Below are positions 17,223 to 55,672 of a stretch of 64,000 bases of DNA, one piece after another. Source of the DNA: a virus; the IMG/VR virus record IMGVR_UViG_3300007512_001367, positions 53,807-117,806 of that record; one strand, written 5' to 3'. The notes below the pieces were generated by a model that made no database searches, was not told the origin of the DNA, and was given only the letters and a program-made list of their open reading frames with translations. The position numbers and the translations under genes are program-made. Position 1 is the first letter of the stretch, and every line of letters starts with the position of its first letter.

Positions 17223-17250
17223 ATAATACTATACTTTTGGTAGAAGTCAA
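17223..17250 (-). promoter_or_regulatory. Sigma70-type promoter of the autotransporter
   Basis: The minus strand reads TTGACT (17250-17245), a 16-nt spacer, then TATTAT (17228-17223), with only 8 nt to ATG 17214. No Shine-Dalgarno site lies between, so the mRNA would be nearly leaderless and likely early. Confidence 0.55.
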
Positions 17251-17256
17251 CCAAAG

Positions 17257-17275
17257 TAGGTCTTAAAAAGACCTA
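17257..17275. repeat. Inverted repeat (8-bp stem, 3-nt loop)
   Basis: TAGGTCTT, AAA, AAGACCTA forms a perfect hairpin just upstream of the autotransporter -35 and after the end of the upstream structural gene. No U-tract follows in either direction, so a terminator is doubtful; an operator for the promoter is possible. Confidence 0.5.
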
Positions 17276-17324
17276 TGTAATTCAATGACTTACGTCTGGT
17301 GTTTTTGGTAATTGTGGGTAAAAA

Positions 17325-17903
17325 TTAAGAATTTAACTGAATTGATGTAATAGAACCAGCAGTAGTTGATGTTGCTTTAGCTCTAACATATACAAAATTT
17401 CCTGTAAAATTATTTGAGCTAATTAAAGTGCTTTGATCTGTTGTAAATGTAGTGCCTGAAATATCAAACCAATCTTCTTCAGTAGGAGTAGAAGCAAGTG
17501 TACCTTGCATTTTAATTGATCCTGTAAGTGTAGCATCTACTTTGTATGCCACAGTATGTACACCATCTACTTGTGAATAATAGCCATCACCTTTTGCTTT
17601 AGCACTAACAAATCCTGTATTATCAATAGTATACGTTGTTGAGCCATCGGCTGTTTCTGTTGTAACAATTTCTTCAACAATAATTGATAAACCGTCACTT
17701 GCAACACTTTTTACAGTAAAAGTTGAATTATTATTTGTAGTACCGGTTACTGTAATTAAATCGTATTGTGCAAGATTGCCAAGACTAGTGCTAGTTGCAC
17801 TAATTTTATATTCAGTACCTGTTGCAGTAAAACTGATATCTGTGCCTGTAATATCCGCTTTATGCGTTTTATTTGATAATAATGTTGTGCTTGTCTGTGC
17901 CAT
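17325..17903 (-). CDS. Putative virion structural protein
   Basis: 192 aa, Thr/Ser-rich and beta-rich, starting MAQTSTTLLSNKTHKADITG. The second half has a pattern common in marine T4-like phage structural proteins: GSIKMQGTLASTP..EDWFDI and NFTGNFVYVRAKA, ending IQLNS. It is probably a small tail, baseplate or fibre component. It has its own late-type box 6 nt upstream and no Shine-Dalgarno site. Confidence 0.65.
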   Translation of the reverse strand: MAQTSTTLLSNKTHKADITGTDISFTATGTEYKISATSTSLGNLAQYDLITVTGTTNNNSTFTVKSVASDGLSIIVEEIVTTETADGSTTYTIDNTGFVSAKAKGDGYYSQVDGVHTVAYKVDATLTGSIKMQGTLASTPTEEDWFDISGTTFTTDQSTLISSNNFTGNFVYVRAKATSTTAGSITSIQLNS

Positions 17904-17909
17904 TATTGT

Positions 17910-17917
17910 TATTTATT
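17910..17917 (-). promoter_or_regulatory. Late-type promoter box, 6 nt before ATG 17903
   Basis: The minus strand reads AATAAATA, then ACAATA, then ATG. It overlaps the stop of the gene at 17913. Confidence 0.55.
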
Positions 17918-18209
17918 GGTTTTTGCGTTTGCCGAATCTTTCAGTTTTAGGAACCAACCCATATACAGCGGCTAATTCATTAGGATTCATTCCATCTATT
18001 GTAGTAATATCAAGGTATTTAATTTTGTATGCTTTACCATCTGCTTCATTATATTCTTCGCAAATACAATCATTTTTTCTTAATTGCTTGACAATAAGAT
18101 GTGCTTTTACTTGGATAGGTTCTCCCATCCAGGATTTTTCTATAGTAGATAATACAATCGAATTTTGTTTGAATATATTATGTTTTTTTAGTTTTCTTAT
18201 TGCGTCCAT
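17913..18209 (-). CDS. Small hypothetical protein
   Basis: 98 aa, mixed charge, with MDAIRKLKKHNIF at the N-terminus, a central CICEEYNEADGKAYKIKYLDI and a basic end (KTERFGKRKN). No family is recognised. Its start overlaps the 219-aa gene by 32 nt, so it is the distal gene of the dnaJ-def-clpA run. Confidence 0.55.
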   Translation of the reverse strand: MDAIRKLKKHNIFKQNSIVLSTIEKSWMGEPIQVKAHLIVKQLRKNDCICEEYNEADGKAYKIKYLDITTIDGMNPNELAAVYGLVPKTERFGKRKNQ

Positions 18210-18837
18210 TTTTTATTGCGACAAATTTTATTACTTTGTCAATACCTTTTTGTGCTATCATATAGATAGGAGTTAGCATTTTTTCTTCGCTCACATAAAA
18301 ATATCCATGGTAACAATGAGGATATTTGCCAATTAAATAATCTAATACATATTTGTTTGATACTAAACAGTCGTTTTCATTATTTTCTAATAGTCTCCAT
18401 AAACTTTGTTTTTCTGAATCTGTAATGTGTTGATGCACATCTTTTTTAAGATGTATTTGATATTGAAATTTACCATGAGGTAATCTTTTACAACCTACTG
18501 AGTTTTTGCCTAATTTATTATATTTTGGATTAACAGATTCAGACCCATACCAGTCATTCCAAAATTCATTTACAATTTTTTTTGCTAAAGGTTCGCTTGT
18601 ATAAAAAATTACATATTTTTGTTGTATTCTAAATTTCATTTGTGTTCTATAATCTAAAATAAATTTTGCTATTTTGGCTATATTCATATCAAAATCGGTT
18701 GCAGATATTTTATACATTTTTACTAAACGATATAAGTTTTCATCAGTAGTAGGATATAGTTTACTTGCATAAGGCATTTTGAATATGCTTTTAAATCCGT
18801 ATTTTTGATAGTATAATTTATTGTGATGTTTTCGCAT
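18178..18837 (-). CDS. Conserved phage hypothetical
   Basis: 219 aa, basic and rich in Tyr and Lys, starting MRKHHNKLYYQKYGFKSIFKMPYA. No catalytic motif is evident. Proteins opening with a (K)HHNKLYY..Y.FK motif recur in marine T4-like phages without known function. It overlaps the end of clpA by 20 nt and so should be co-expressed with it. Confidence 0.6.
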   Translation of the reverse strand: MRKHHNKLYYQKYGFKSIFKMPYASKLYPTTDENLYRLVKMYKISATDFDMNIAKIAKFILDYRTQMKFRIQQKYVIFYTSEPLAKKIVNEFWNDWYGSESVNPKYNKLGKNSVGCKRLPHGKFQYQIHLKKDVHQHITDSEKQSLWRLLENNENDCLVSNKYVLDYLIGKYPHCYHGYFYVSEEKMLTPIYMIAQKGIDKVIKFVAIKNGRNKKTKKT

Positions 18838-21160
18838 TTTCTTTTTTTGGTTTAAATTGATTTGTTATAATCGGTGCTTTAAATTGTACTTTTAGTTTTG
18901 GTACGACATCGTTAGATAAACTAACGGCAACTCTACCACCTTCTGTTAATTCACCAAATAGTATCATTCTAGATAAAGGTTTCTTAATTTCTTCGTCTAT
19001 AACTCTTTGTAAAGGTCTTGCTCCCATTTTAGCATTAAATCCTTTTTTAATTAAAAATTCAATAGCTTCATCATTAGCATTAACTTCTACATTTTTCTCT
19101 ACGGTCATTGCATTTAATTCTAGTAAGAATTTCTTAACAATTAATTTCATTGTTTCTTTTGCTAGTTTAACAAATTTAACTGTTGCATCTAGTCTATTTC
19201 TAAATTCTGGAGGAAAGAATTTTTTCAAAGCGGTATCATCTTCGCCGGTTCTTTCGCTTGGTCCAAAACCAATACTTTCTCTTTCCATTTCTTCTGCACC
19301 TAAATTTGAAGTCATGATAAGTGTAATATTTCTACAATCTGCTTTTTTACCGTTGGAACCAGTAACACTTCCATAATCCATAACTTGTAATAGCATATTG
19401 GATACATCACGATGTGCTTTTTCTACTTCATCAAATAATACAACCGCGTGTGGATTTTTTTCTATTTCATTTATAAACATACCACCACCCATTGTAGTAT
19501 CTTCGTAGCCTACATAACCTGGAGGTGAGCCAATTAGTTTTGCAATAGAATGTTTCTCTTGATATTCTGACATATCAAATCTTAATAGTTCAACACCTAA
19601 AGTTTTTGCTAATTGTTTTGCAGTTTCAGTTTTACCACAACCCGTAGGTCCTAAAAATAAAAATGATCCAACAGGTTTGTTTAAAGTTTTTAATCCTGCT
19701 CTTGCAACTAATATTCTATCGATAATAGTATTAAGTGCTTTATCTTGTCCAAATATTTGCAGTTTCATTTTTTCTTCTAATGTTTTTAAACTTGTTGCTT
19801 GTTTTTGTGACAGTTGCTCAATTGATATACCTGTTGTAGCAGATATTTCATGTATTATTTCTTCATGGTCTATTTTGCCATCTTTAATTCCGTTTAATCT
19901 TAATCTTGCACACGCCACGTCAATAATGTCAATTGCTTTATCAGGCAATTTTTTATCTGTAACAAATTTTGATGTATATTCTACTGCGTCTTCACAAGCA
20001 TCATCGGTTATAGTACATTTATGAAATTGTTCATAGTATTGTTTAACACCTTTTAATATTTTAACCGCAGTTTCATTTGAAGGTTCACCTATTTGTAATC
20101 TTTGGAATCTTCTCATTAATGCTCTATCTTTTTCAAAGAATTTTCTATACTCTTCCCAAGTAGTAGATGCAATTACTTTTATATTACCCTTCATTAGTGC
20201 AGGTTTAATCATATTAGCCATATCCATACTGTTACCACTTCCAGTAGCACCAGCACCTACCATCATATGTGCTTCATCGATGTGTAATACTGTTTTGCCT
20301 TTTTGATCTAATGCATTTAAAACAAGTTTTAATCTTTCTTCAAAGTCTCCTCTAAATTTAGATCCTGCTATTAAAGAGTTTACATCTAAACTATATACGA
20401 TATGATTTTTTAAATATTCTGGAATATCTTCTTTATTTTTAGCGATACGTCTTGCAAGTCCTTCGATTAGTGCCGTTTTACCTACACCAGGGTCACCTAC
20501 TATTAATACATTATTTTTATTTCTTCTTGCTAGAATTTGTTTTAGTTGATTAGTTTCTTCTATTCGTCCTATTACAGGATCAATTTTTTTATCAAAATAT
20601 TTTTGATTTAAATTCTCAGTATAGTTTTTTAATATTCTATCTGCTTGGTTTGGTCGTAGTTTTTGTTCAACGCCAATCATTCCAGGGCCAGGTCCACCCA
20701 TAGCCGCCATACCTTCGTCTAATATAGTTTCGGTAGATACTAGATCCATTAAGTCTTGTTTATTAACTTTGTGTTTTTTTAAGAAAAATGAACCATAACT
20801 TTTCTTTTCAGCAAATATACTGATTAATATATCTACAGAAGTAACATCTTGTCTACCTTGAAATAATGCTTGAGTAAATGCTCTGTTCATTAATCTTTCT
20901 AATGATGCAGTTTTTCGTGGTGCTATAGGTTTAGTTGATTTTGAAATAATGTCTGTACATTTTGTATCAAGATAATCTTCAACGTCTTTAATCATTTGTC
21001 CAACATTAATTTTAAATTCTGATAATGTGGTACCAATATCTTTGTCCTTGATTAATGCTAATAGTACGTGTTCAATTGTAACGTATTCGTGTTTTCGTTT
21101 TTCTGCTTCGTTTACAGAATTTGTAAATATGTTTTCTAATGATTCATTAGCTTCAAGCAT
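18818..21160 (-). CDS. clpA: ClpA-like AAA+ unfoldase
   Basis: 780 aa from ATG 21160, chosen because GGAGGA precedes it. The N-terminal Clp-N repeats (residues 1-140) are followed by two AAA+ modules: Walker A GDPGVGKT at 222-229 with HIDEAH, and GPTGCGKT at 504-511 with LFDEVEKAH. A SIGF loop at about 629-632 matches the IGF/IGL loop by which ClpA docks on ClpP. The length is close to E. coli ClpA (758). No ClpP gene is in the window, so it probably recruits host ClpP to redirect protein turnover. Confidence 0.92.
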   Translation of the reverse strand: MLEANESLENIFTNSVNEAEKRKHEYVTIEHVLLALIKDKDIGTTLSEFKINVGQMIKDVEDYLDTKCTDIISKSTKPIAPRKTASLERLMNRAFTQALFQGRQDVTSVDILISIFAEKKSYGSFFLKKHKVNKQDLMDLVSTETILDEGMAAMGGPGPGMIGVEQKLRPNQADRILKNYTENLNQKYFDKKIDPVIGRIEETNQLKQILARRNKNNVLIVGDPGVGKTALIEGLARRIAKNKEDIPEYLKNHIVYSLDVNSLIAGSKFRGDFEERLKLVLNALDQKGKTVLHIDEAHMMVGAGATGSGNSMDMANMIKPALMKGNIKVIASTTWEEYRKFFEKDRALMRRFQRLQIGEPSNETAVKILKGVKQYYEQFHKCTITDDACEDAVEYTSKFVTDKKLPDKAIDIIDVACARLRLNGIKDGKIDHEEIIHEISATTGISIEQLSQKQATSLKTLEEKMKLQIFGQDKALNTIIDRILVARAGLKTLNKPVGSFLFLGPTGCGKTETAKQLAKTLGVELLRFDMSEYQEKHSIAKLIGSPPGYVGYEDTTMGGGMFINEIEKNPHAVVLFDEVEKAHRDVSNMLLQVMDYGSVTGSNGKKADCRNITLIMTSNLGAEEMERESIGFGPSERTGEDDTALKKFFPPEFRNRLDATVKFVKLAKETMKLIVKKFLLELNAMTVEKNVEVNANDEAIEFLIKKGFNAKMGARPLQRVIDEEIKKPLSRMILFGELTEGGRVAVSLSNDVVPKLKVQFKAPIITNQFKPKKENAKTSQ

Positions 21161-21378
21161 TAGTCTGTTCCTCCAATTTTTGGCCAAGGTCCTCTGCTAC
21201 CACCGCCACCTAATCCTTTAAAGTGATTAATTTTCTTTTTCTTTTTTCTTCTTTTTACTTTCCTTGTTTGTGGCATACTTTTCTTTTGTTCTTTAGCTCT
21301 CAATTTGTTATAGTCTGCTTCACTTATATCGTTAAATCCAAATTCATCTTCCATAGCATTATACTCTTTGCGTTGCAT
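21160..21378 (-). CDS. Small protein with basic and Gly-rich tail
   Basis: 72 aa as given, or 64 aa if Met9 (21354, MEDEFGFNDISEADYNK) is the start; the later start lies 5 nt after the deformylase stop and looks more natural. An acidic N-terminal motif is followed by a very basic run (KVKRRKKKKK) and a Gly/Ser tail ending in IGGTD. Function unknown. The stop overlaps the clpA start (TAATG). Confidence 0.55.
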   Translation of the reverse strand: MQRKEYNAMEDEFGFNDISEADYNKLRAKEQKKSMPQTRKVKRRKKKKKINHFKGLGGGGSRGPWPKIGGTD

Positions 21379-21889
21379 TAATTTTTTTTTCTAATTTTTT
21401 AACTGCCATATCCCATCGAAGTTTAGATACTTTAGTATTAAATGTAATACCGTTTAGATGATCAAGTTCATGTTGAAAGCATTTACTTTCCATACCATCT
21501 AAATGTTGCATTAAAGTTTCTCCTTTTTTGTTCTCCCATTTTACTGTAACTCTTTTAGGTCTTTCTATTTTTACAAATACTCCTAAAAAACTTAAACATC
21601 CTTCTTCATCCAACGTTTTTTCTTCACTTTCTCGAACTATCGATGGATTCCATATTATAACAGGTTTTTGCATTTTGTCAAACGACTCGTGTCCAAATGC
21701 AAAGAATCGCTTGGTAACGCCTATTTGATTTGCCGCTAATCCCAAACCTCGAGCATTTATCATTAAATTAATCATATCGTTTTCAAATTTTTCAATATCA
21801 TCGTAATCAAGAAGTTTATCGTTTTTAATGTCAAACGGAGTACTTACTTCCGTTAATGCTTTATGTGGATATTGCAATATTGAAATCAT
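21359..21889 (-). CDS. def: Peptide deformylase
   Basis: 176 aa. All three metal-site motifs are present: GLGLAANQ (48-55), EGCLS with Cys98, and QHELDH with His140 and His144. The enzyme removes the N-formyl group from nascent proteins. Marine phages often carry a deformylase, thought to favour synthesis of viral or photosystem proteins. It is coupled to dnaJ by a 4-nt overlap. Confidence 0.95.
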   Translation of the reverse strand: MISILQYPHKALTEVSTPFDIKNDKLLDYDDIEKFENDMINLMINARGLGLAANQIGVTKRFFAFGHESFDKMQKPVIIWNPSIVRESEEKTLDEEGCLSFLGVFVKIERPKRVTVKWENKKGETLMQHLDGMESKCFQHELDHLNGITFNTKVSKLRWDMAVKKLEKKINATQRV

Positions 21890-22731
21890 AAATTTTTTAT
21901 TTTGTTTAAATCTGTTTGTGAAAGTTCCGGTATTATAATGTTTATTCTCACATATAGATTTCCTCTAATATTTAACGTCTTGTGTATGGGCATACCTTGT
22001 CCTTTACAAAGGATCAAAGTTCCGGGTTGTGTAGCAGGTGGTACTTGTATTTTAATAATAGTATCAGTTAATGTTTTTAATTTTAATTCAAGTCCTCGTA
22101 TTGCTTGAAAACAATTTATAGTTTTATCTGTATATAAATCGTTTCCTTTTCTTGTATAGCCATCAGAATCAAGAACACTCATTTGTACTAATAAATCACC
22201 ACGTGGCATATTTTTTATTGAATCATCTCCCATACCTTTGTATTTGAATGTTATACCATGTTGTACACCAGCTGGAATTTTTACTGTGGCAAATTCTTCT
22301 TTGTTTGAAGGTAGTCTATATGATATAGTTTTTTCTAAGGTGTTCATTGCTTCTTTAATTGATATAGACATTCTTACGTTTATACTTTTATTATGTTGTT
22401 GTCGTGTTCTAAAAGTTCTTGTTCGTACATTAGGTCCACCAAAACCAGAAAAGAAATTCTCAAACATATCTTCACCAAAGAAGTCACCAGAAGTAAAATG
22501 AAAGTTTCCTCCTTGTCCACCACTATTTTGGCCGTATTTTCTTATAGTATCATATTCTTGTTTTTTACTAGAATTTTTTAATGTGTCGTAGGCTTCATTA
22601 GCTTCTTTAAATTTTGTTGTATCCCCTCCACGATCTGGGTGATGTTCTTTTGCTAATTTTTTAAAAGCCTGTTTAATTTGTTTGTCAGATGCATTTTCTG
22701 ACACACCTAGTATATTATAATAATTCTTCAT
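21886..22731 (-). CDS. dnaJ: DnaJ/CbpA-type co-chaperone
   Basis: 281 aa. The J domain (residues 1-70) contains HPD at 31-33, followed by a Gly/Phe region (GGQGGNFHF..FFGEDMFENFFSGFGG) and a C-terminal substrate-binding domain without the cysteine-rich zinc finger, so it is of the CbpA type. It should stimulate host DnaK. It is the first gene of a dnaJ-def-clpA operon under a consensus sigma70 promoter. Confidence 0.93.
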   Translation of the reverse strand: MKNYYNILGVSENASDKQIKQAFKKLAKEHHPDRGGDTTKFKEANEAYDTLKNSSKKQEYDTIRKYGQNSGGQGGNFHFTSGDFFGEDMFENFFSGFGGPNVRTRTFRTRQQHNKSINVRMSISIKEAMNTLEKTISYRLPSNKEEFATVKIPAGVQHGITFKYKGMGDDSIKNMPRGDLLVQMSVLDSDGYTRKGNDLYTDKTINCFQAIRGLELKLKTLTDTIIKIQVPPATQPGTLILCKGQGMPIHKTLNIRGNLYVRINIIIPELSQTDLNKIKNL

Positions 22732-22742
22732 TTATAGTAATT

Positions 22743-22770
22743 ATTATATTACGGATCTGTGAATTGTCAA
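22743..22770 (-). promoter_or_regulatory. Consensus sigma70 promoter before dnaJ
   Basis: The minus strand reads TTGACA (22770-22765), a 16-nt spacer, then TATAAT (22748-22743): both hexamers are perfect. Only 11 nt separate the -10 box from ATG 22731, so the leader is about 5 nt. Expected to be a strong early promoter recognised by host polymerase. Confidence 0.75.
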
Positions 22771-22780
22771 CTTTTGGTAA

Positions 22781-23104
22781 TTATTTTTTGTTTTTTGGAA
22801 GTGTTGCACCCGGTTTACCGACATATAGTCCAAAGAATGCCGCGCCGGCACCAACTATTGTTGATATAAACATAGCTTGAGCATTGGTTGGATCTGTTAG
22901 TCCCATAAACCATTTTACTGATGTGTAAAAAGCAAAGATGTAAGCCAACATCACCATTCGAGGAATAACTCTAAACTTGTCAATAAGACCTGCTAATTTA
23001 TTATACCATGTAGGTGCGTCTTCACCAGTATCAGGAATAAGGTCGCTTTTTTGTACTTCGTATTCTTCTGTTGTTTTTTTAACTTTAATTAAATCATCAG
23101 CCAT
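22781..23104 (-). CDS. Holin-like membrane protein
   Basis: 107 aa. A polar N-terminus is followed by two membrane segments (about residues 48-66 and 76-96: MVMLAYIFAFYTSV and AMFISTIVGAGAAFFGLYVG) and a basic tail. The design (VIPR-hydrophobic...STIVGAGAAFFGLYVG) matches proteins annotated as holins in marine T4-like phages. Location next to the endolysin and spanin genes supports a role in permeabilising the inner membrane. No biochemical signature distinguishes it from other small membrane proteins. Confidence 0.6.
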   Translation of the reverse strand: MADDLIKVKKTTEEYEVQKSDLIPDTGEDAPTWYNKLAGLIDKFRVIPRMVMLAYIFAFYTSVKWFMGLTDPTNAQAMFISTIVGAGAAFFGLYVGKPGATLPKNKK

Positions 23105-23694
23105 TATTTTAAGCTCTCGATTTTAGCATTTCTTTTTCTATGACCGTTCCATGCCATAAAACCGCCAAGTCTTAATGACCAATATGACAAGTAGTTCATA
23201 GTATAAAATCCGTTAACATAAATGTTAATATCTCTGAATGTTTTATCCATCCATTTTTGATCTTTAATGCCAATAGTATCTTTTTTATTTTTCTTTAATA
23301 GTGTTGCATACTTGTAACCGTAGTCGTGTACAAGTCCACCCATTAATAATACTCCAACCGGAGAGAAAAAAGTTCTTAGGAATTTTGGAATACTTGCACC
23401 ATCAAATGTAAATCCTGCAGGTATCACGTAATCAGTTCCGTTTATGTTGTAGTTCCAATCTTTTGTGACAGTCCAGTTTCTTGTTGATAATATCCACATT
23501 AATATACCTTTAAAAAATCCTATACCTTTTGTAGATATTTTTAATGGTTGCATATGCGGAAATTCTTTATATGTAAATTCTACTTTAGGTGGCTTTCTTT
23601 TATCTAATACGTTTATAAGCCAACCTATTAGAATAAAAACAATCACTAACGTCCATTGCCAAAATTTCATTGCAAGTGCTATTATAAATTCCAT
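23104..23694 (-). CDS. DUF1353-like membrane-anchored protein
   Basis: 196 aa. It has one N-terminal membrane segment (residues 5-26), then a soluble domain with PAGFTFDGASIPKFLR and GLVHDYGYKYA, the hallmark pair of DUF1353 proteins found in phage lysis regions. Its function is not established; the His-Asp motif suggests a metal site. AGGA precedes the ATG and a late-type box lies about 28 nt upstream. The stop overlaps the holin-like gene by one base. Confidence 0.65.
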   Translation of the reverse strand: MEFIIALAMKFWQWTLVIVFILIGWLINVLDKRKPPKVEFTYKEFPHMQPLKISTKGIGFFKGILMWILSTRNWTVTKDWNYNINGTDYVIPAGFTFDGASIPKFLRTFFSPVGVLLMGGLVHDYGYKYATLLKKNKKDTIGIKDQKWMDKTFRDINIYVNGFYTMNYLSYWSLRLGGFMAWNGHRKRNAKIESLK

Positions 23695-23722
23695 TTTTTT
23701 TCCTTTTTAAGTTATATGCGTA

Positions 23723-23730
23723 TATTTATT
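23723..23730 (-). promoter_or_regulatory. Late-type promoter box before DUF1353 gene
   Basis: The minus strand reads AATAAATA overlapping the stop of the nuclease gene, with 28 nt to ATG 23694 and a Shine-Dalgarno AGGA in between. Unlike most boxes here, it leaves a normal leader. Confidence 0.45.
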
Positions 23731-24163
23731 CTATTGCGCCTTCTACAATACCTTGTTTAACAAGTTTTTTTCTATTTTTAATGTGTTGTTTCTGTACATC
23801 TTCTTTAGCACCACCAAAATAAGCTACTGCATGGCCTTCTTCACAAAGTATATCTGCACAACTATGACCGTCTTCAGTTGCAAAATTTCCTAAGATTCGT
23901 CCAAACTTACCCTTCATGTCTTCGCCTTTTTTGTTTACCTGTGTTTTTAGAATAGCAGTCTCACCTAATAACTCTTGTAATCTACTTTTAGCCGCTAATC
24001 CAAACTTCTTTTCTATGTCATTGCTTGTTCTAGATTCGGGTGTGTCTATGCCCATGATTCTAACACGTTCATTGCGTATCCACGTACCAAAACCTAAGTC
24101 GATATCAATATCAACAGTATCTCCGTCTATTACTTTTAATACTTTACATCTGTATTCGTACAT
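23726..24163 (-). CDS. Staphylococcal-nuclease-like (SNase) protein
   Basis: 145 aa. It contains IDGDTVDIDIDLGF, ERVRIMGIDTPESR and KFGRILG, matching the thermonuclease family; the catalytic Arg (R in RVRIMGIDTPE) and Glu (E after TP) and the second Arg (GRILG) are in place, as are the calcium-site Asp residues. It lacks a signal peptide, so it would act in the cytoplasm on DNA or RNA. It overlaps the next gene by one base. Confidence 0.85.
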   Translation of the reverse strand: MYEYRCKVLKVIDGDTVDIDIDLGFGTWIRNERVRIMGIDTPESRTSNDIEKKFGLAAKSRLQELLGETAILKTQVNKKGEDMKGKFGRILGNFATEDGHSCADILCEEGHAVAYFGGAKEDVQKQHIKNRKKLVKQGIVEGAIE

Positions 24164-24369
24164 TATTCTTCTCTTATAATATATTTGATTGGTTGATCTG
24201 ATTTAACAACAACGTATTTTTCAGTTTCCATATTTTTAAATGTAATATGGTTAGGTTTAACTTCTTTAAATTTACGAACTTGTAATGTAGTTTCACTTCC
24301 TTCAAACCAATAAGTCAGTTCTGCAGGATAACCTACAATCCAATACCATATGTTAGTTAGAATTCTCAT
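24163..24369 (-). CDS. Small hypothetical in lysis region
   Basis: 68 aa, beginning MRILTNIWYWIVGYPAELTYW, with aromatic residues at the start and a short beta-rich body. It may be membrane associated. No family is recognised. It overlaps the o-spanin-like gene by 17 nt. Confidence 0.5.
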   Translation of the reverse strand: MRILTNIWYWIVGYPAELTYWFEGSETTLQVRKFKEVKPNHITFKNMETEKYVVVKSDQPIKYIIREE

Positions 24370-24718
24370 CTGTCTCGTAATATTTTTTGTATTCTTCTAG
24401 TAAGTTAGTTGTTTCTTGTAATTTTTGTCTTATCTGTGCAAAGTTTTTAGCAAGTACTTGAAAATCTTTATCTGTTACTCCAAATAGTACAGGATCAATT
24501 CCTGCCGCTTCTAGTTTAGCAAATACTTCTTCTGCATTTTCACTTGTAATAATAATCCATTTAATTTCTTCAAGTTGTAATGCAGTTGGCATTGGATAAT
24601 CTAGATTTTTTCTAGGTTCTTCTACTTGAAATATTTTAATTTTCTTTTCACCACCAATACTGCAACTAGTAAGGAAAATAATTAGTGCTACTGCAAATAT
24701 TTTATTGATATGGTACAT
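24353..24718 (-). CDS. Lipoprotein, candidate o-spanin (Rz1-like)
   Basis: 121 aa. The signal MYHINKIFAVALIIFLTSCS ends in a lipobox (LTSC, Cys about 19), predicting an outer-membrane lipoprotein. The mature part has Pro residues then a helical coil ending QETTNLLEEYKKYYET. Directly after the coiled-coil membrane protein, with 17 nt overlap, the pair fits an i-spanin/o-spanin set for outer-membrane disruption. It is longer than phage lambda Rz1 (60 aa), so it would be a large o-spanin. Confidence 0.6.
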   Translation of the reverse strand: MYHINKIFAVALIIFLTSCSIGGEKKIKIFQVEEPRKNLDYPMPTALQLEEIKWIIITSENAEEVFAKLEAAGIDPVLFGVTDKDFQVLAKNFAQIRQKLQETTNLLEEYKKYYETDENSN

Positions 24719-25175
24719 AACTTGGGTTTGCTAACGCCGGGCATTCCGGGTTTATCTCCGATTTTAAAGTTGCTTTTAATTCTGCTTCTGTGTGTTCGGC
24801 GCCTGAAGCCAACTCAATACATCTTTGAGCATTTTTGGCACCTTTGTTTATAATTCTTTCAACTGCTTTTGTTCTGTCTATTGCTAGTTTTCCAACATCT
24901 CTGTTCTTTTTGGTAAATCTTTTATCTAAATCTTCTAAATCTTTTTTAAATGTTTGTATTAATTCGTTTAATTTTTTATTGCTTTCAAGGATTGCTTCAA
25001 AATCTGCTTTTTGTTGTTCTAATAGTTTAGTTTGCGACTCAATACTTTGTTCTAGTTTTATTTGATTTGTTTTAAGAACGGCGTTGTCTGCTCTCAATTT
25101 GAAAACATACATACCTGCACCTGCGATACCCATGATCATAACCAGGGTAATAACCATTCTTATTTGTCCAAACAT
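24702..25175 (-). CDS. Membrane-anchored coiled coil, candidate i-spanin (Rz-like)
   Basis: 157 aa. One N-terminal membrane segment (residues 6-26) is followed by about 100 residues of heptad-like coil (LKTNQIKLEQSIESQTKLLEQQ...), then a C-terminal Cys/Pro region (CIELASGAEH..NPECPALANPSY). Topology and neighbours match i-spanins, which span the periplasm to contact the lipoprotein partner. Confidence 0.65.
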   Translation of the reverse strand: MFGQIRMVITLVMIMGIAGAGMYVFKLRADNAVLKTNQIKLEQSIESQTKLLEQQKADFEAILESNKKLNELIQTFKKDLEDLDKRFTKKNRDVGKLAIDRTKAVERIINKGAKNAQRCIELASGAEHTEAELKATLKSEINPECPALANPSYVPYQ

Positions 25176-25183
25176 AATGTATG

Positions 25184-25191
25184 TATTTAAC
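25184..25191 (-). promoter_or_regulatory. Late-type promoter box, 8 nt before ATG 25175
   Basis: The minus strand reads GTTAAATA, then 8 nt, then the i-spanin ATG. It matches the late box less well than others. Confidence 0.35.
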
Positions 25192-25655
25192 TACTCTGTG
25201 AGCCCGTTTTTATAAACTGTTTTACCGTCCTCTTTTACAGCTCTAAGACGTTGCATACGGTTTGCTCCACGATTATAACTAACGTGAACCCAACCCGAAT
25301 CTGGTATTCCTGGGGTGTGAAATTCAAGAATTACTTGGTCGAAGGTACAATTATCCGAAATCCAATCAGCTACATAACGATTACCTGTACCTGGACATTC
25401 AATATCAACTGCTTTACCTTCACAATGTTGAGATTTCCAAGAGCCTCCAATTGCTTTGTTTAATACTACTCCTCTATAACCCGAATTGATTGCTATTGGA
25501 CCAAAATGATTTCTAACTGGCTGAAGGACCATTTCACATAGAAGTTGCATATTTTCTATATGTTCTTCGGTAGGTGTGTTGTCGATGTTTTGTCGTATTG
25601 CGGTTTGACTTCTTGTAAATTCTTCCAGTGTGAAATTTGTGCTTAATCTTACCAT
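25191..25655 (-). CDS. Endolysin, M15-type peptidase
   Basis: 154 aa. The fold of D-Ala-D-Ala/L-Ala-D-Glu peptidases (M15A) is shown by NSGYRG, SQHCEGKAVDIE (zinc His and Asp) and GWVHVSY (last zinc His). It should cut peptide bridges in peptidoglycan at lysis. No signal peptide is seen, so release would depend on the holin. Overlaps the 246-aa gene by 7 nt. Confidence 0.85.
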   Translation of the reverse strand: MVRLSTNFTLEEFTRSQTAIRQNIDNTPTEEHIENMQLLCEMVLQPVRNHFGPIAINSGYRGVVLNKAIGGSWKSQHCEGKAVDIECPGTGNRYVADWISDNCTFDQVILEFHTPGIPDSGWVHVSYNRGANRMQRLRAVKEDGKTVYKNGLTE

Positions 25656-26389
25656 TTGTACTTACTTAACAGAACAGAGTTTTGTCCTTTAGAAAAAACG
25701 AATCTGTCCTCAGTAGTTTTGGTAATATTATATGGTCCAAAGTATTTGGTTAGGTGTATGCATTCTGCCATGGCATCTTGATCAATAGTAAATGCTTTAA
25801 CTTCTTTTAGTATCATTTGTGACTCACCATATGAATGTAATTCAAATTTTAATGTATCTTTTGTTCCGTGTTTTTTAATCGAAATAATATTGTTGTCTAA
25901 TTTAAATTCCATCATAGCAAATTTGTCAAAGAAATCTTTTACTTCGCCTAATCTTAGTGAATTAACTTTTTTTGTATATGCTATAGGTGTTCTTGGTAAT
26001 ACATCTGCTAAATTTTTTGCAGATGCTTCAAATGGTACTGATCTTTTATGATATGTAAATTCAAATGTTTCTATGTTTGTTAATTTTTTTAAATCTTCTA
26101 AAAATTTTATAATATGTTGATCAACTGTTTCTACTCTTGCAAATTCTACAAATACTCTATGTTTGCCATCCATTACTGTTCCAGGTGTAGCGTCTGCATC
26201 TAATATTTCTTTGTATCCTGTTTCTGCAAAACGTTCTAAATCTTTCGCAGGTTCTAGGCCACTAACAGAGAAGGCAAGAACCATAATGTTCCTGTCATCA
26301 CCCATTTTTGATTTATATTGATCTACTGAAAAACGTTTATCTACAACGCCTTCTAAATCACCGGCTTTTAATCCTTCGTTAAAGTGCAT
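25649..26389 (-). CDS. Conserved T4-like marine phage protein
   Basis: 246 aa starting MHFNEGLKAGDLEGVVDKRFSV. The opening and the phrase DGKHRVFVEFAR match a conserved but uncharacterised protein family of marine T4-like phages (from memory). No enzyme motif is seen. It overlaps its neighbours by 7 and 11 nt, in a run with the 159-aa protein. Confidence 0.65.
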   Translation of the reverse strand: MHFNEGLKAGDLEGVVDKRFSVDQYKSKMGDDRNIMVLAFSVSGLEPAKDLERFAETGYKEILDADATPGTVMDGKHRVFVEFARVETVDQHIIKFLEDLKKLTNIETFEFTYHKRSVPFEASAKNLADVLPRTPIAYTKKVNSLRLGEVKDFFDKFAMMEFKLDNNIISIKKHGTKDTLKFELHSYGESQMILKEVKAFTIDQDAMAECIHLTKYFGPYNITKTTEDRFVFSKGQNSVLLSKYKW

Positions 26390-26858
26390 CTGCTGTATTT
26401 AGATTATCAGGCATAATGTCTGTTTCGTCTTGGCTTTCTACGTCATCTTTACCATGTTTTAAATTGCCAATTAATTCTTTTGGCATTTTAATATTCACGA
26501 CCCAAATTCCGTGTCCATCAATTTTACCTTTTACTGTGCCTGGTCGATAATCTTCTGGTCCTTTAATTTCTCTTGGTTTAAATAATGTATCTTTTTCAAA
26601 TGTAACTTTACAACCTCTATCTAATAATCGTTTACCTCCTGATGGATCAGGCATTTGATCTTCAGGCCACATAAAAGAACATTCAACAAAATGTCTGTGA
26701 TCTACTGGTCCTGTAAGTAATTCTCCGTCTTGCCAGTTCTTAAAAACATAAACGTCTAATTCGTCTATAACTCGTTCAAAGTCCTTCAATATGCCCAAAG
26801 TAGGGCCTACGGCGTACAAAGATTGTATATTTTTGATTATATCGAGTACATCATGCAT
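26379..26858 (-). CDS. Conserved T4-like marine phage protein
   Basis: 159 aa. ILKDFERVIDELDVYVFKNW, CSFMWPEDQMPDPSGGKRLLD and GTVKGKIDGHGIWVV are recurrent in marine T4-like phages; function unknown. It may be structural, as it pairs with the 246-aa protein. A weak late box (GCTAAATA) lies 8 nt before the ATG. Confidence 0.65.
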   Translation of the reverse strand: MHDVLDIIKNIQSLYAVGPTLGILKDFERVIDELDVYVFKNWQDGELLTGPVDHRHFVECSFMWPEDQMPDPSGGKRLLDRGCKVTFEKDTLFKPREIKGPEDYRPGTVKGKIDGHGIWVVNIKMPKELIGNLKHGKDDVESQDETDIMPDNLNTADAL

Positions 26859-26866
26859 AATGTTAT

Positions 26867-26874
26867 TATTTAGC
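26867..26874 (-). promoter_or_regulatory. Weak late-type box before ATG 26858
   Basis: The minus strand reads GCTAAATA with 8 nt to the start codon and no Shine-Dalgarno site. Confidence 0.35.
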
Positions 26875-26881
26875 GATTAAA

Positions 26882-28079: not shown

Positions 28080-28085
28080 TTACTA

Positions 28086-28114
28086 ATAATATACAAGTTA
28101 TTGTTATTTGTCAA
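28086..28114 (-). promoter_or_regulatory. Sigma70 promoter of gp44, 6 nt before ATG
   Basis: The minus strand reads TTGACA (28114-28109), 17 nt, then TATTAT (28091-28086), with 6 nt to ATG 28079. No Shine-Dalgarno site fits, so gp44 mRNA should be leaderless. The -35 lies in the end of the ParB-like gene. Confidence 0.7.
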
Positions 28115-29099: not shown

Positions 29100-29104
29100 G
29101 ATTT

Positions 29105-48653: not shown

Positions 48654-49764
48654 ATCCTTGTTTTAATCCTTCTATTTGTATTTTTTTCCAATTATCACTT
48701 TCAAGACTGTATGGATATTCGTTTTCCCAACTTCGTAACCCAATAGTGTGAATACTTTTTATATTTAAATTGTTTTTCATTGTATTATACACTTCTAGAA
48801 ATGGTTTATTTTGAAATGCTAATTTCATGTCTACTTGGCCGATTTTAATATATCCAAGAGATAATTTTGGGTCTTCCCAATCGTAATTGTTTTCCTTTAA
48901 CCATTTTTTAAACTCATCTATTTCTTTTTTCTTAAATGCGTGTGTTTCTTCTGTGATAGTATCGCCCCATTCAATATCAAACTCACCAGAATAGTATTTT
49001 TGATGGTTTATTTCGGAACACATAGATTCAGTCATTACAGGTGCGTATTCATCTCTAAAAACTTCATATAAAGTTTTGCCAACTTGTGACCAATGTAGAT
49101 ATACACCACCTAATTCTCTGTTATATCTGTTTTGTTTGAATAATTCATAATCTTCTTCGTGTAAATCGTGTCTAGGTGCATTTAAAAATGTAGTAATTTG
49201 AGAAGGCCTCATCCATGCAGGGTCTACTACACTTTTTCTATAACTTAATACCCAATTTTCTATTTCATGACAAAGATTATTAAGTTGTCTTATTGCATAT
49301 TTTGTTTCTGTGTCTGCTTGTTTGTAGTAATCGGAAATTTTCCATGCAGTTCCTTGTAGTTCTTCAAAATACCTATGTAATAAATTACAAGCATCATGTT
49401 TTAATCTTAATCCTGGTTTCTCCCATTCATTTCCACTTGGACAAAGTCCTGTTGGGAGTGTAGATGAGTGTTGAAAATCTGCTGGAGTAAATGATTTTAA
49501 TTTAGGATATTCTGGATTAAATTTAAATGAATCTATTTGTGCTATATTTTTGTTTAATTCTTCGCAAAGATAAGTTAAATCTCTTTTAGAATCTGCCCAA
49601 CCTAAAAAACAGAAGTTTTTTTCTAATATTCTTTTTTCTGTTAAATTATCTTTTAGTGCTTCAAGAAATCTTTTTCCTAAAGGAGTATCGTAAATGTGTA
49701 CTCTTACTTGTTTGTTGTTGTATTGAATTACTAAATTTTCAAATAGAGTTATTTGCTTGTCCAT
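48631..49764 (-). CDS. Conserved marine-phage protein of unknown function
   Basis: 377 aa with phrases NRYNRELGGVYLHWSQVGK, EINHQKYYSGEFDIEWGD and ADFQHSSTLPTG that recur in marine T4-like phages (memory). No enzymatic motif is seen. The start overlaps the QueD-like gene by 16 nt. Confidence 0.65.
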   Translation of the reverse strand: MDKQITLFENLVIQYNNKQVRVHIYDTPLGKRFLEALKDNLTEKRILEKNFCFLGWADSKRDLTYLCEELNKNIAQIDSFKFNPEYPKLKSFTPADFQHSSTLPTGLCPSGNEWEKPGLRLKHDACNLLHRYFEELQGTAWKISDYYKQADTETKYAIRQLNNLCHEIENWVLSYRKSVVDPAWMRPSQITTFLNAPRHDLHEEDYELFKQNRYNRELGGVYLHWSQVGKTLYEVFRDEYAPVMTESMCSEINHQKYYSGEFDIEWGDTITEETHAFKKKEIDEFKKWLKENNYDWEDPKLSLGYIKIGQVDMKLAFQNKPFLEVYNTMKNNLNIKSIHTIGLRSWENEYPYSLESDNWKKIQIEGLKQGYESYSMR

Positions 49765-50255
49765 CCCTTGAATCCTGCATTTGGGTTTGTGTAGATTGAG
49801 CTATTTTTGTCATTCTCTCTAGCTTCAACACTAATAACCCAAGCACGACCACGAGATTTTTCACGTAACCATTTATCTGTCCATTCACAAAGATAATGTG
49901 CAGTACCTTCCATGCCAGGTCCCATTGGATGAGTTCTAATTCGGCATACACCTGCTTGTTCTAATTCTTTAAATTTATCCATATGTGGATCTTCTTCATC
50001 AAGTACTAAAGTATGGTCATACATATGATCTAAATGTGCTTTTAATTCTTTTAAGTCACCATAGTCTACTGCAAAGCCTTCTTTTGTAAATGTTTTAATG
50101 CCAAATACAAAATGAAAACTTCTGCTGTATCCGTGAATTAAATGGCAGTTGCCATCATGTCTATATTGTCTATGAGCACACGGAAAATTCCAAAAACTTT
50201 TTGTGGAAGTAAAACATTCTTCTGTTACGTTGTCTTTAATTTCTATATCAGCCAT
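49749..50255 (-). CDS. QueD/PTPS-like tetrahydropterin synthase
   Basis: 168 aa. Zinc-site histidines are in FPCAHRQYRHDGNCHLIHGYS and the later DHMYDHTLV contains the DH pair. The family makes 6-carboxy- or 6-pyruvoyl-tetrahydropterin from dihydroneopterin triphosphate, in queuosine or pterin synthesis. No queC or queE lies in this window, so the product is uncertain. Confidence 0.8.
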   Translation of the reverse strand: MADIEIKDNVTEECFTSTKSFWNFPCAHRQYRHDGNCHLIHGYSRSFHFVFGIKTFTKEGFAVDYGDLKELKAHLDHMYDHTLVLDEEDPHMDKFKELEQAGVCRIRTHPMGPGMEGTAHYLCEWTDKWLREKSRGRAWVISVEARENDKNSSIYTNPNAGFKGWTSK

Positions 50256-50512
50256 TAGTGTAACCTCTTTTTAATATCGTTAACGTCAATTCCTAGTTCA
50301 TTTGATTTATTACGAATTGAATCAGTTAACTCGTTTGGGATATTTAATTCTCCATCAAGGATAGATTTTAAAAAGTGGATAAACACCGTAAATTCTGGTC
50401 TCTTTGTTACTGTCTCAGGATCAATGTTATATTTTTCCATTTGATCTAACATAGCTTCTGTAACATCAACTAATGCTTTAATACTTGTACTATGTTTTTC
50501 AAAATGTGTCAT
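50255..50512 (-). CDS. Small hypothetical
   Basis: 85 aa, helical, starting MTHFEKHSTSIKALVDVTEA. No family recognised. Its start overlaps the Sm-like gene stop (TAATG), and the stop abuts the QueD-like gene, so the three should be co-translated. Confidence 0.55.
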   Translation of the reverse strand: MTHFEKHSTSIKALVDVTEAMLDQMEKYNIDPETVTKRPEFTVFIHFLKSILDGELNIPNELTDSIRNKSNELGIDVNDIKKRLH

Positions 50513-50817
50513 TATACTATAATTTTTGGTTTCTCAGGTGTTTTTATTGTAGAAAATATTCTTTCGTATTCTTGTTTAATTTTATCATTAATATTTGCAA
50601 TAGATGTAATTTTATTTCTACAAATGTTAATAGGTTCGTTTTGTTCAGCAGTAGAAAAGAATGTTCCAAATGCTAAACCTTTAGGACCTTGCATTAATAC
50701 TAATGCTTTCTCTATACTGATATAATCAGAATTAAGTGATTTAAAATTTGCAATTACTTCTTCACCTGATGCAAGTTTAAGAGTAATAACATTTCCTTCT
50801 TTAAATTTGTCAAACAT
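50512..50817 (-). CDS. Sm/LSM-fold-like small protein
   Basis: 101 aa. VITLKLASGEEVIANFKSLNSDYISIEKAL followed by INICRNKITSI follows the Sm1-Sm2 pattern (G-E-x-x-x strands with a central Asp). Small Sm-like proteins of unknown function are common in marine T4-like phages. A perfect sigma70 promoter lies in the end of the upstream gene, 6 nt before the ATG. Confidence 0.55.
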   Translation of the reverse strand: MFDKFKEGNVITLKLASGEEVIANFKSLNSDYISIEKALVLMQGPKGLAFGTFFSTAEQNEPINICRNKITSIANINDKIKQEYERIFSTIKTPEKPKIIV

Positions 50818-50823
50818 AATACT

Positions 50824-50851
50824 ATTATAAACTTTATTTAGATTTTGTCAA
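50824..50851 (-). promoter_or_regulatory. Consensus sigma70 promoter, 6 nt before ATG 50817
   Basis: The minus strand reads TTGACA (50851-50846), 16 nt, then TATAAT (50829-50824) with 6 nt to the ATG. The -35 is inside the C-terminal codons of the MptE-like gene. Leaderless transcription is predicted. Confidence 0.75.
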
Positions 50852-51466
50852 TTGCTTATTAATAAATTTAGCCATGCCGTCATAAGATTCTTGGAAAACG
50901 TTTTTATGTTGAGACCATTCCTCTGGCATTTTCCATTTTTCTTGATTTACCACGATCCAACGAACATTTGGAAATAATTCCATTAATTTGTGGAATTGAT
51001 GTACCCAATAAGATGGATCAACTGGTCGTTTAATGTATTCATATCCTTTAGTATTTTTGTATATATTATTGACTGTTTTTCCTATTGGATAAAGATCAAA
51101 TCCTAACATAAAAATTGCTTTTGGTTTAAAAGTTAATGCTACTACACCTGCGTATGGTCCAGTCCCCCAATGGAACGGGTCATCTTTTCGTTGATCGCCG
51201 TGATAAGGTAAATGTGGTATTTTTATTACATTTGGCCACATGGCAAATTGATTAACCCATTTATCTCTGGTGTAAATTGTGGTGCCTTTGCCTACAGTGT
51301 TTACTGCTTCTTGACACATATGTTTATCAGCACATACTAGGTATTCACAGACGTAATCTCTGAATATAGCATTACATCCTACCACCGTTGAAAATAGTTT
51401 TAGTGGAGTTATATCAAACCCCCGTCTACTCTCACCATTTCCTACAACACTTACGAATTTAGTCAT
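50834..51466 (-). CDS. MptE/GT29-like glycosyltransferase-type protein
   Basis: 210 aa. VVGNGESRRGFD, CNAIFRD and CADKHM are the same motif set as in the protein at 43582, so these are paralogues. C-terminal WIVVNQEKWKMP is distinct. Probably modifies a glycan, but the enzymatic reaction is not certain. A late-type box lies 5 nt before the ATG. Confidence 0.62.
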   Translation of the reverse strand: MTKFVSVVGNGESRRGFDITPLKLFSTVVGCNAIFRDYVCEYLVCADKHMCQEAVNTVGKGTTIYTRDKWVNQFAMWPNVIKIPHLPYHGDQRKDDPFHWGTGPYAGVVALTFKPKAIFMLGFDLYPIGKTVNNIYKNTKGYEYIKRPVDPSYWVHQFHKLMELFPNVRWIVVNQEKWKMPEEWSQHKNVFQESYDGMAKFINKQLTKSK

Positions 51467-51471
51467 ATTGC

Positions 51472-51479
51472 TATTTAAA
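51472..51479 (-). promoter_or_regulatory. Late-type promoter box, 5 nt before ATG 51466
   Basis: The minus strand reads TTTAAATA with 5 nt to the start codon. It lies in the 74-nt gap after purF. Confidence 0.45.
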
Positions 51480-54024: not shown

Positions 54025-54025
54025 T

Positions 54026-54301
54026 TTAATACCAAATAAAATTGTAGAGGAAAATTATTCCACAAACCCATCCAGCAAAACCATACCAAAAGTCATCCCA
54101 ACTCCAGTGACCTTTACTCCATAAGTCTAGTCCTTCTTTAATAATTGTTGCAATAAGTCCTAACCATACTAATGGTAGCCAAAATATTGCAAACATAGTT
54201 AAAAAGAAAGACCATAAGAAATGTAGTTGTAAGTCTAGTCTAAAATAGTGAAGGATACAATCAGTTAGTTTTTTATAATAAGTTTTAGTTTCCATTGTCA
54301 T
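54026..54301 (-). CDS. Small membrane protein
   Basis: 91 aa from ATG 54301, with two membrane segments (about residues 30-52 and 74-90), the latter Trp-rich. A short KEGLDLW..GHWSWDDFWYGFAG motif lies between. It resembles phage-encoded proteins without function. Overlaps the SET gene by 17 nt. Confidence 0.6.
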   Translation of the reverse strand: MTMETKTYYKKLTDCILHYFRLDLQLHFLWSFFLTMFAIFWLPLVWLGLIATIIKEGLDLWSKGHWSWDDFWYGFAGWVCGIIFLYNFIWY

Positions 54302-54605
54302 CAAAATCCATGTATAATGAATATTTGGCTGTTAATTCTTCGTCTGTTTTAATATTTTTAATTGACATAAGGTATACTACTGGTAATTGATGCCAAAATC
54401 CTTGATATGTTTTACAATTTGGATTAATTGAATGATTATAAAATGCTCCTAAAGCCGTTCTTATATGACCGTGTGGAAAGTTTTTATTTTTAATATGTAC
54501 AATTCCAAATACTGTATCTTTTGGGAAATCTTTTGTAGCATATAATCCTAATCCTTGTATTTTAGAATATTTAATTGTGATTCCATCTGGAAGTGGTTTA
54601 TACAT
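54285..54605 (-). CDS. SET-domain protein
   Basis: 106 aa. The SET core is complete in miniature: IQGLGLYATKDF, a GHIRTALGAFYNHSINPNC block with the NHS motif (57-59), and a DEELTAKY end. These residues bind SAM and the target lysine in protein lysine methyltransferases. The protein lacks pre- and post-SET domains. It may methylate a host or phage protein; overlaps the exonuclease gene by 8 nt. Confidence 0.78.
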   Translation of the reverse strand: MYKPLPDGITIKYSKIQGLGLYATKDFPKDTVFGIVHIKNKNFPHGHIRTALGAFYNHSINPNCKTYQGFWHQLPVVYLMSIKNIKTDEELTAKYSLYMDFDDNGN

Positions 54606-55131
54606 TTCTAATCCCTAACTGTTTATATACTTTTTGTACTTTTCTTGCTTGAAAGTAACAGTCTTCTAATGCATTATGCATACCTGTTCTTACTTCGTTA
54701 AGATCACGTGGTACTAAACTAAACAAAGTTCGAGAATCTCGTATTTGCCAGTATTGCCATGGAACAGGATGTCCTAATTGTTTATATAAATTTTGTAATA
54801 TAGCATAATCAAATAAAGGTCCTTGACACCAAAATACATTCACACCTACTGCCCATTTGTTAATTCTTTTAACCATTTCTTCAAGAGGTATTCGATCTTT
54901 TTCACCCATAGCTTCATCTTGTATTTCTTTTGATTGTGTTGCCCACCAATCAATTGTTTCTTGCATTACTTCTCTGCCTGTAGTAGTTTGTGAATCCACA
55001 TCTACTTTAAAATACATACCTTGTGATGGTTCTGTGTGTGTATATGGATCAAATTTTACACCACCTACTGTTAAAATCACAGCATTAGGGTTAGTGCTTA
55101 ATGTTTCCAAATCTATCATTGCGTGGATCAT
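54598..55131 (-). CDS. DEDDh-type 3'-5' exonuclease
   Basis: 177 aa from ATG 55131 (ATGA overlap with the upstream stop; the longer frame from 55155 is less likely). MIDLETLSTNPNA contains the DxE motif, WCQGPLFDYAIL the second Asp, and HNALEDCYFQA the HxxxxD. Together they make a DEDDh exonuclease similar to RecE-C or RNase-T-like proteins of phages. It may degrade DNA ends or RNA. Confidence 0.85.
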   Translation of the reverse strand: MIHAMIDLETLSTNPNAVILTVGGVKFDPYTHTEPSQGMYFKVDVDSQTTTGREVMQETIDWWATQSKEIQDEAMGEKDRIPLEEMVKRINKWAVGVNVFWCQGPLFDYAILQNLYKQLGHPVPWQYWQIRDSRTLFSLVPRDLNEVRTGMHNALEDCYFQARKVQKVYKQLGIRNV

Positions 55132-55346
55132 GAGTATTTTGCCTTTGGTTTCCATCCAGGTTCACCAACATCTTTTAATGGATCTGGAATTTGTTTTATA
55201 TTAGTAATTTTGTGATTAGGAAATCTTGCTTCAATGTCTTTTCCAGTATCACTATAAACAAACGTTTTTATAGTTTTCTTTTCTAACTTTAAATTGAATT
55301 CCCAAGCCTTTTGAGTTGAAGGAGCTGGTGCAGTTTTTATAACCAT
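55128..55346 (-). CDS. Small hypothetical
   Basis: 72 aa: MVIKTAPAPSTQKAWEF, then beta-rich TIKTFVYSDTGKDIEARFPN and a Pro/Lys tail. No family recognised. Coupled to the exonuclease by the ATGA overlap. Confidence 0.55.
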   Translation of the reverse strand: MVIKTAPAPSTQKAWEFNLKLEKKTIKTFVYSDTGKDIEARFPNHKITNIKQIPDPLKDVGEPGWKPKAKYS

Positions 55347-55350
55347 ACAA

Positions 55351-55638
55351 TTATTCTTTCTCCTTCGTTCTAAAATCGTATTTTATAGGTTTCCAATCTT
55401 CTGCAAATGGAAATATATGGGTATGTTCTTCAGGTCCGTCATAACCCCATTTAATTTTGCTCCATCCTCTTTCGTGAGCATAATATAAAAACATTTTTGT
55501 TATTACCTCAATACCTGCAATAGCACCCGCTAACGTTAGGTAACCTGTAATTATCCAACTGATTAAAAATGTATCAGTAGTCGCAAGGATTCTCCAAGTC
55601 AAGGTTTTTACCAGACTTCTTCTGATTTTACTTCTCAT
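55351..55638 (-). CDS. DUF2061 membrane protein
   Basis: 95 aa. RRSLVKTLTWRILATTDTFLISWIITGYL and the YYAHERGW motif mark DUF2061, a small membrane-protein family with two hydrophobic segments. Function unknown. A strong sigma70 promoter directly precedes it. Confidence 0.82.
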   Translation of the reverse strand: MRSKIRRSLVKTLTWRILATTDTFLISWIITGYLTLAGAIAGIEVITKMFLYYAHERGWSKIKWGYDGPEEHTHIFPFAEDWKPIKYDFRTKEKE

Positions 55639-55643
55639 AGTTT

Positions 55644-55672
55644 ATTTTACTATGAAAACCAAGATCTGTCAA
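55644..55672 (-). promoter_or_regulatory. Sigma70 promoter, 5 nt before ATG 55638
   Basis: The minus strand reads TTGACA (55672-55667), 17 nt, then TAAAAT (55649-55644) and 5 nt to the ATG. Predicted leaderless and early. Confidence 0.7.

Follow-up and report, generated by a model that had tools for sequence, protein, structure and literature searches.

In the genome of an uncultivated marine virus that infects bacteria, sigma70-type promoters lie within a few nucleotides (nt) of the start codons behind them, and we consider it very probable that these are real promoters whose operon heads are translated from leaderless, or nearly leaderless, mRNA. The DNA analysed (the window) is a 64,000-nt stretch, positions 53807-117806 of the 117,806-base virus record IMGVR_UViG_3300007512_001367, which has a GC content of 32%; window genes are mostly on the minus strand. 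Markers of the T4 superfamily are present, namely a gp43-type polymerase (phrog_262, E 3e-193) and a gp44-type clamp loader, and the DNA polymerase is closest to that of Sinorhizobium phage Phosso (49.7%), followed by Agrobacterium phage Atu_ph07 (43.8%). We denote by d the number of nucleotides from the final base of the −10 box to the ATG. Sigma70 transcription starts about 7 nt past the −10 box, so that at d = 6 the A of the ATG is position +1.

Six such promoters had been named in an earlier note on this DNA. On rereading the sequence, we found all of them on the minus strand, with boxes, spacers and distances as claimed. They and their genes are as follows, the promoters read from the sequence and the genes with their evidence in brackets:

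28080-28114, minus strand: gp44 promoter TTGACA-17-TATTAT (boxes 28114-28086), 6 nt to the ATG at 28079
27150-28079, minus strand: gp44-like clamp loader ATPase (AAA-type Pfam match)
29100-29133, minus strand: co-chaperonin promoter TTGCAA-17-TATAAT (boxes 29133-29105), 5 nt to the ATG at 29099
28695-29099, minus strand: Cpn10-like co-chaperonin (PF00166, E 3.6e-7)
50818-50851, minus strand: Sm-like promoter TTGACA-16-TATAAT (boxes 50851-50824), 6 nt to the ATG at 50817
50512-50817, minus strand: Sm/LSm-like fold protein (AlphaFold2 model and Foldseek)
55639-55672, minus strand: DUF2061 promoter TTGACA-17-TAAAAT (boxes 55672-55644), 5 nt to the ATG at 55638
55351-55638, minus strand: DUF2061 membrane protein (PF09834, E 5.9e-22)
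22732-22770, minus strand: dnaJ promoter TTGACA-16-TATAAT, a perfect match (boxes 22770-22743), 11 nt to the ATG at 22731
21886-22731, minus strand: DnaJ (PF00226, residues 3-61)
17215-17250, minus strand: promoter-like site TTGACT-16-TATTAT of the protease gene (boxes 17250-17223), 8 nt to the ATG at 17214
13603-17214, minus strand: subtilase-domain protein (PF00082, E 2.7e-33)

Relative to the sigma70 consensus (TTGACA, 16-18 nt, TATAAT), four of the six sites have at most one mismatch, and two, those of the co-chaperonin and the protease, have two. The protease site is the weakest of the six; a neighbouring TATTAT with a 19-nt spacer would give d = 5 instead. Pfam bears out the Cpn10, DnaJ and DUF2061 labels, and AAA-type models match gp44, which is closest to proteins of the PA5oct group (54.2%) and has matches in 2578 phage records. 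The Sm-like protein has no significant Pfam match, and its label stands on the predicted fold: the AlphaFold2 model (pLDDT 79.6) matches the Sm/LSm-like structure 3by7 in Foldseek (E about 6e-5). What had been called an autotransporter is the subtilase-domain protein, in which Pfam detects only a Peptidase_S8 domain.

In so AT-rich a genome, in which the gaps are very short, TATAAT-like strings might fall near ATGs by chance. Loose promoter matches between 17000 and 30000 are about as common as after shuffling (67 versus 65.0 ± 7.3), which means that single weak sites mean little, and −10 hexamers taken by themselves show just a mild excess at d 4-9 (13 versus 8.4). With two mismatches each, the co-chaperonin and protease sites would not stand alone, and for the protease site by itself chance is possible. 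Paired sites, by contrast, are concentrated in a single register. We defined a strong site as a paired −35/−10 with at most one mismatch to consensus, and took as gene start the first codon of the longest ATG open reading frame (ORF); ORFs shorter than 60 amino acids (80 in the profile of 2181 contexts below) or lacking an ATG were not called. Over the whole record, strong sites occur at d 5-9 ahead of 6 of 148 called starts, compared with 1 of 1985 internal ATGs (Fisher p 7e-7). A separate count at d 0-9 gave 6 of 148 starts, against 0.22 per 150 internal ATGs (2060 internal ATGs). Three of these six starts are inside the window (gp44, Sm-like and DUF2061); the others are at L002:8254, at a QueE-like gene (L003:15424) and at a cysteine-dioxygenase-like gene (L003:16436).

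The same register dominates in relatives. From IMG/VR we took 160 loci, the best 80 of 598 for gp44 and the best 80 of 88 for the Sm-like gene; start-context counts omit any ORF close to the 5′ end of a stretch, and each repeated context was counted once. Among 2181 distinct start contexts from these loci, strong sites reach 55 per 1000 at d = 6 and are near zero outside d 5-9, whereas 22,525 internal-ATG controls show no peak and stay near zero. In the wider set (the 160 loci, the window phage and one large relative, G002), 226 start contexts have a strong site within 60 nt, 191 of them at d 5-9 and 22 at d 20-60. A Shine–Dalgarno (SD) motif, scored as GGAG, AGGA or GAGG within 5-17 nt ahead of the ATG, is found in 0 of the 191 close contexts but in 16 of the 22 distant ones. 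The 191 contexts represent 26 protein families, 12 of which have two or more members, and collapsing upstream sequences at 75% identity leaves 77 contexts, 46 of them at d = 6. A count made without gene calls agrees: of the 388 sites, 226 (58%) are followed by an ATG at d 5-8, compared with 4 of 86 reversed and 1 of 33 permuted sites. The internal-ATG, reversed and permuted controls thus reject AT-richness as the origin of the set as a whole; with the Sm-like site present in all 57 distinct relatives, and relatives' loci at a GC content of 0.36-0.40, we regard chance as extremely unlikely. The profiles support a closeness that is locked to the normal distance between the −10 box and +1.

If the promoters were real and the true start codons lay farther downstream, the leaders would be of normal length, and our starts, called as the longest ATG ORF with predicted N termini, could in principle mislead in this way. 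The J domain of DnaJ begins at residue 3, however, which fixes that start codon, and 63 gp44 and 57 Sm-like relatives align from residue 1. We also counted against downstream starts the N terminus of the protease, which we take to resemble a lipoprotein signal ending in LSAC. No SD motif precedes the close starts, and ATG is preferred over GTG and TTG at the exact offset: in the count without gene calls, GTG and TTG are depleted at d 5-8 behind promoters (0.03 versus 0.10 elsewhere). PMC3616915 reports that leaderless initiation requires AUG, and a preference for ATG with rarer GTG and TTG is what it would predict. Given the position of the J domain and the alignments of relatives, wrongly called starts are a highly improbable explanation.

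Conservation differs among the promoters. We dropped homologue contexts in which the alignment began after query residue 8 or fewer than 70 nt lay upstream, as well as duplicates, which reduced the matches from 80 to 63 (gp44), 73 to 37 (co-chaperonin), 80 to 57 (Sm-like), 7 to 4 (DUF2061) and 33 to 26 (dnaJ); the protease gene had no homologue among the fetched relative loci (0 before and after). All 57 distinct relatives keep the Sm-like promoter with no more than one mismatch, at d 5-8 (43 at d = 6), and none of them has an SD motif there. At most two mismatches are seen in 29 of 37 distinct co-chaperonin relatives, at d 5-9, and this retention backs the window's co-chaperonin site despite its two mismatches. 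The dnaJ promoter has at most one mismatch in 15 of 26 distinct relatives, ten of them at d = 7, and the DUF2061 promoter is retained in 4 of 4, at d 5-6. In the Sm-like family the −35 box falls in the tails of differing upstream genes and in two reading frames (L085 versus L102), and the coding of protein thus fails to account for its being conserved.

Translation could instead proceed mainly from longer upstream transcripts, through coupling or A/U-rich standby sites, with the boxes contributing minor extra transcripts. The gaps ahead of the six genes are small (13-110 nt), some late promoters of the same genome have leaders with SD motifs, and gp44 relatives without the box use an SD motif or abut the upstream gene, all of which would suit this explanation. 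It leaves unexplained the fixed distance of 5-9 nt in 26 families that lack SD motifs, and the shared register of genes inserted behind a promoter. In L102 an exonuclease gene directly follows the promoter; in L099 a near-identical promoter is followed by another gene in the same ATG register, and the exonuclease gene is internal. In L011 a promoter resembling that of the window's gp44 precedes an inserted gene whose ATG is in the same register. The swapped first genes behind nearly the same promoter are:

L099:1757-2515
L102:1823-2362
L011:9598-10029

The arrangement looks as if genes had been exchanged at the joint between promoter and ATG. New first genes appear mostly to have been accepted with their ATG at the promoter, and the promoter–ATG register is under selection. 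We therefore judge dominance of longer transcripts to be improbable.

Under the leaderless reading, host RNA polymerase with its primary sigma factor would use the sigma70-type boxes, and, with the −10 box so near the gene, transcription would begin on the first base of the AUG or no more than a few nucleotides upstream. The opening gene of each unit would thus be read from a leaderless or near-leaderless mRNA, the 5′-terminal AUG of which the ribosome presumably binds directly, while later genes in the unit would rely on SD motifs or overlap with the upstream gene. A large share of T4-type late promoters would use the same register. The sequence itself shows the boxes, their conserved spacing, the missing SD motifs, the specificity for ATG and the difference from related phages, and from these we infer the transcription start, the mode of translation and the timing; promoter type alone suggests that the six genes are early.

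T4-type late promoters have a TATAAATA core near the start and are active with gp55, gp33 and gp45; neither gp55 nor gp33 was named in the part of the proteins that was scanned. TAAATA ends 4-9 nt ahead of the ATG at 17 of 150 record starts, where 0.1 would be expected, with a peak at d 5-6. The genes concerned include an Rz-like spanin and virion proteins:

51467-51477, minus strand: late TAAATA, 5 nt to the ATG of gene 50834-51466 (motif scan)
26859-26872, minus strand: late TAAATA, 8 nt to the ATG of virion structural gene 26379-26858 (phrog_12928)
26390-26401, minus strand: late TAAATA, 6 nt to the ATG of virion structural gene 25649-26389 (phrog_13138)
25176-25189, minus strand: late TAAATA, 8 nt to the ATG of the Rz-like spanin gene 24702-25175 (phrog_739)

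A further 14 starts of the window phage have TAAATA at d 15-60, nine of them with an SD motif, so that late-type promoters occur in two forms. The form with a longer leader and an SD motif behind TAAATA is seen at two genes, 37235-39730 and 39777-41396 (which weakly matches tail fibres), and sets them apart from the late genes that lack leaders.

The earlier note had proposed that leaderless translation is general and not only late. As regards promoters this holds, the closeness being real and conserved for both the sigma70 and the late type; it does not extend over genes. Among 84 window starts, classified by rules that will have mislabelled some, 6 are sigma70-type leaderless (exactly the six named before) and 13 late-type leaderless, whereas an SD motif precedes 24, another 31 begin within or directly against the preceding gene, and 10 fit none of these classes. 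It is promoter-proximal genes that habitually start leaderless, rather than genes at large.

Several observations, in addition to the unenriched loose matches, weigh against a leaderless reading of these promoters. The gp44 promoter is retained in just 4 of 63 relatives, 33 of which have SD-like motifs, which marks it as local to certain relatives. The protease site combines two mismatches with a lack of relatives, and the dnaJ message, with d = 11, would carry some 4-5 nt ahead of its AUG and so be near-leaderless. Among strong sites no farther than 150 nt away, only 3 of 20 in the outer relative G003 and 3 of 12 in the outer relative G005 are at d 5-9, most promoters of these two being leadered. 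For late promoters, a test without gene calls gave only about twofold enrichment in the window phage (43 versus 20 per 1000 per position), and in Pelagibacter phage HTVC008M the signal at d 4-9 was not above a rotated control, d = 5 alone standing out; G002 reached three- to fourfold enrichment, and loci L005-L042 and L085-L164 came close to threefold.

The Sm-like gene itself carries the most conserved leaderless promoter. A further-reaching proposal is that the clade fused promoter and start codon into a cassette, moving operon heads behind both sigma70-type and late-type promoters from SD-led to leaderless initiation, and that the conserved Sm/LSm-like protein may favour leaderless messages. 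We regard this as unlikely; speculatively, the protein would act on ribosomes or mRNA ends during infection.

Around the dnaJ and co-chaperonin genes, a set of genes for protein quality spans 18818-29099 and includes an ATP-dependent protease (18818-21160), a peptide deformylase (21359-21889), DnaJ and the co-chaperonin. Within the deformylase gene, and apparently out of its frame, a perfect TTGACA-16-TATAAT abuts an ATG (21681-21654), representing either a cryptic promoter or chance. A QueD-like gene (49749-50255) is also present, as is the QueE-like gene (L003:15424-16311). Rfam gave no match in the window, and ARAGORN found no tRNA.

An alphaproteobacterial host is plausible. The curli secretion genes csgF and csgG lie at 57884-59595, and the best isolate match of csgG is to Pelagibacter phage HTVC008M (50%), with Melnitz at 42%; csgF/csgG are the sole likeness to pelagimyophages that bears on a SAR11 host. 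CHASE2-cyclase genes are found nearby, at 56159-57805 and 62844-63980, the latter near the record end and apparently incomplete. In a genome sample of the SAR11 family, a weak candidate host family, SD motifs are scarce, at 13% of 631 starts compared with 6% in the control, and −10 boxes are just slightly overrepresented at d = 6; of 30 genomes of the family, 1 has the leaderless sigma70 pattern in its strict form. The earlier note had also suggested that leaderless translation may match a preference of the host ribosome, and these counts speak neither for nor against that idea. A DUF2061 search of genome contigs returned 28 loci from mixed taxa. Its top two, L239 and L240, have DUF2061 at 80% identity and come from the 'Rickettsiales' metagenome-assembled genome MED657; these contigs may themselves derive from phages and have ended up in a bacterial bin, and are thus uninformative on the host.

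Counting strong sigma70 sites by one method throughout, we compared the clade with other phages:

Window phage: 6 at d 5-9, 2 at d 20-60
G002: 9 at d 5-9, 3 at d 20-60
gp44 loci of at least 79% identity: 50 at d 5-9, 8 at d 20-60
gp44 loci of 72-74% identity: 23 at d 5-9, 14 at d 20-60
Sm loci: 111 at d 5-9, 1 at d 20-60
HTVC008M: 1 at d 5-9, 3 at d 20-60
Melnitz: 2 at d 5-9, 7 at d 20-60
Phosso (part): 0 at d 5-9, 2 at d 20-60
Atu_ph07 (part): 0 at d 5-9, 9 at d 20-60
PA5oct: 0 at d 5-9, 10 at d 20-60
T4: 0 at d 5-9 (of 243 starts), 2 at d 20-60
Syn9: 0 at d 5-9 (of 174 starts), 10 at d 20-60

T4, Syn9, PA5oct, Atu_ph07 and Phosso come out as leadered, demonstrating that the method detects leadered promoters where they are present. 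The leaderless form is dominant only in the clade of the window phage and fades in outer relatives. A whole lineage of T4-type marine phages seems to have moved to leaderless mRNAs, and its mostly leadered relatives (G003, G005, PA5oct, Phosso and Atu_ph07) offer a natural comparison for what favours leaderless initiation. The pattern also bears on the prediction of gene starts and promoters. Late-promoter methods built for cyanomyophages failed on pelagimyophages, according to PMC7029224; some HTVC008M genes have their late motif just 5 nt ahead of the ATG, and such closeness could be one reason for that failure.

Our impression is that phage leaderless mRNAs have usually been described one gene at a time. 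A literature search, conducted mostly outside subscription papers, found no account of leaderless sigma70 promoters running through a clade of marine T4-type phages. T4 and Syn9 share with the window phage the sigma70 consensus and the TAAATA late core and differ in that their promoters are mostly 15-60 nt upstream of the start. HTVC008M resembles it in that 14 of its 175 starts have TAAATA at d 4-9, but has few strong sigma70 sites, three of four being leadered at d 20-60. Phage AR9 is reported to have leaders of 26-491 nt, unlike the window clade. At the modal d = 6, the −10 box opens with a T 12 nt ahead of the ATG (5 nt farther for dnaJ), and PMC3160421 calls leaderless genes from a −10-like box at about 12 nt before the start codon; the TA-led leaderless genes of bacteria described there share with the clade both this box, about 12 bp before the start, and the absence of an SD motif. 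That survey concerns cellular genomes and gives leaderless genes in 2 of 117 alphaproteobacterial genomes, whereas the window clade consists of marine T4-type phages with full −35/−10 pairs and a contrast between lineages. Phage lambda appears there as a single case of a leaderless phage mRNA; in the window clade, two promoter types share the register. Leaderless phage messages are thus known in kind, whereas the literature search did not turn up a clade in which sigma70-type and late-type promoters alike are locked to the start codon, with related phages as contrast.

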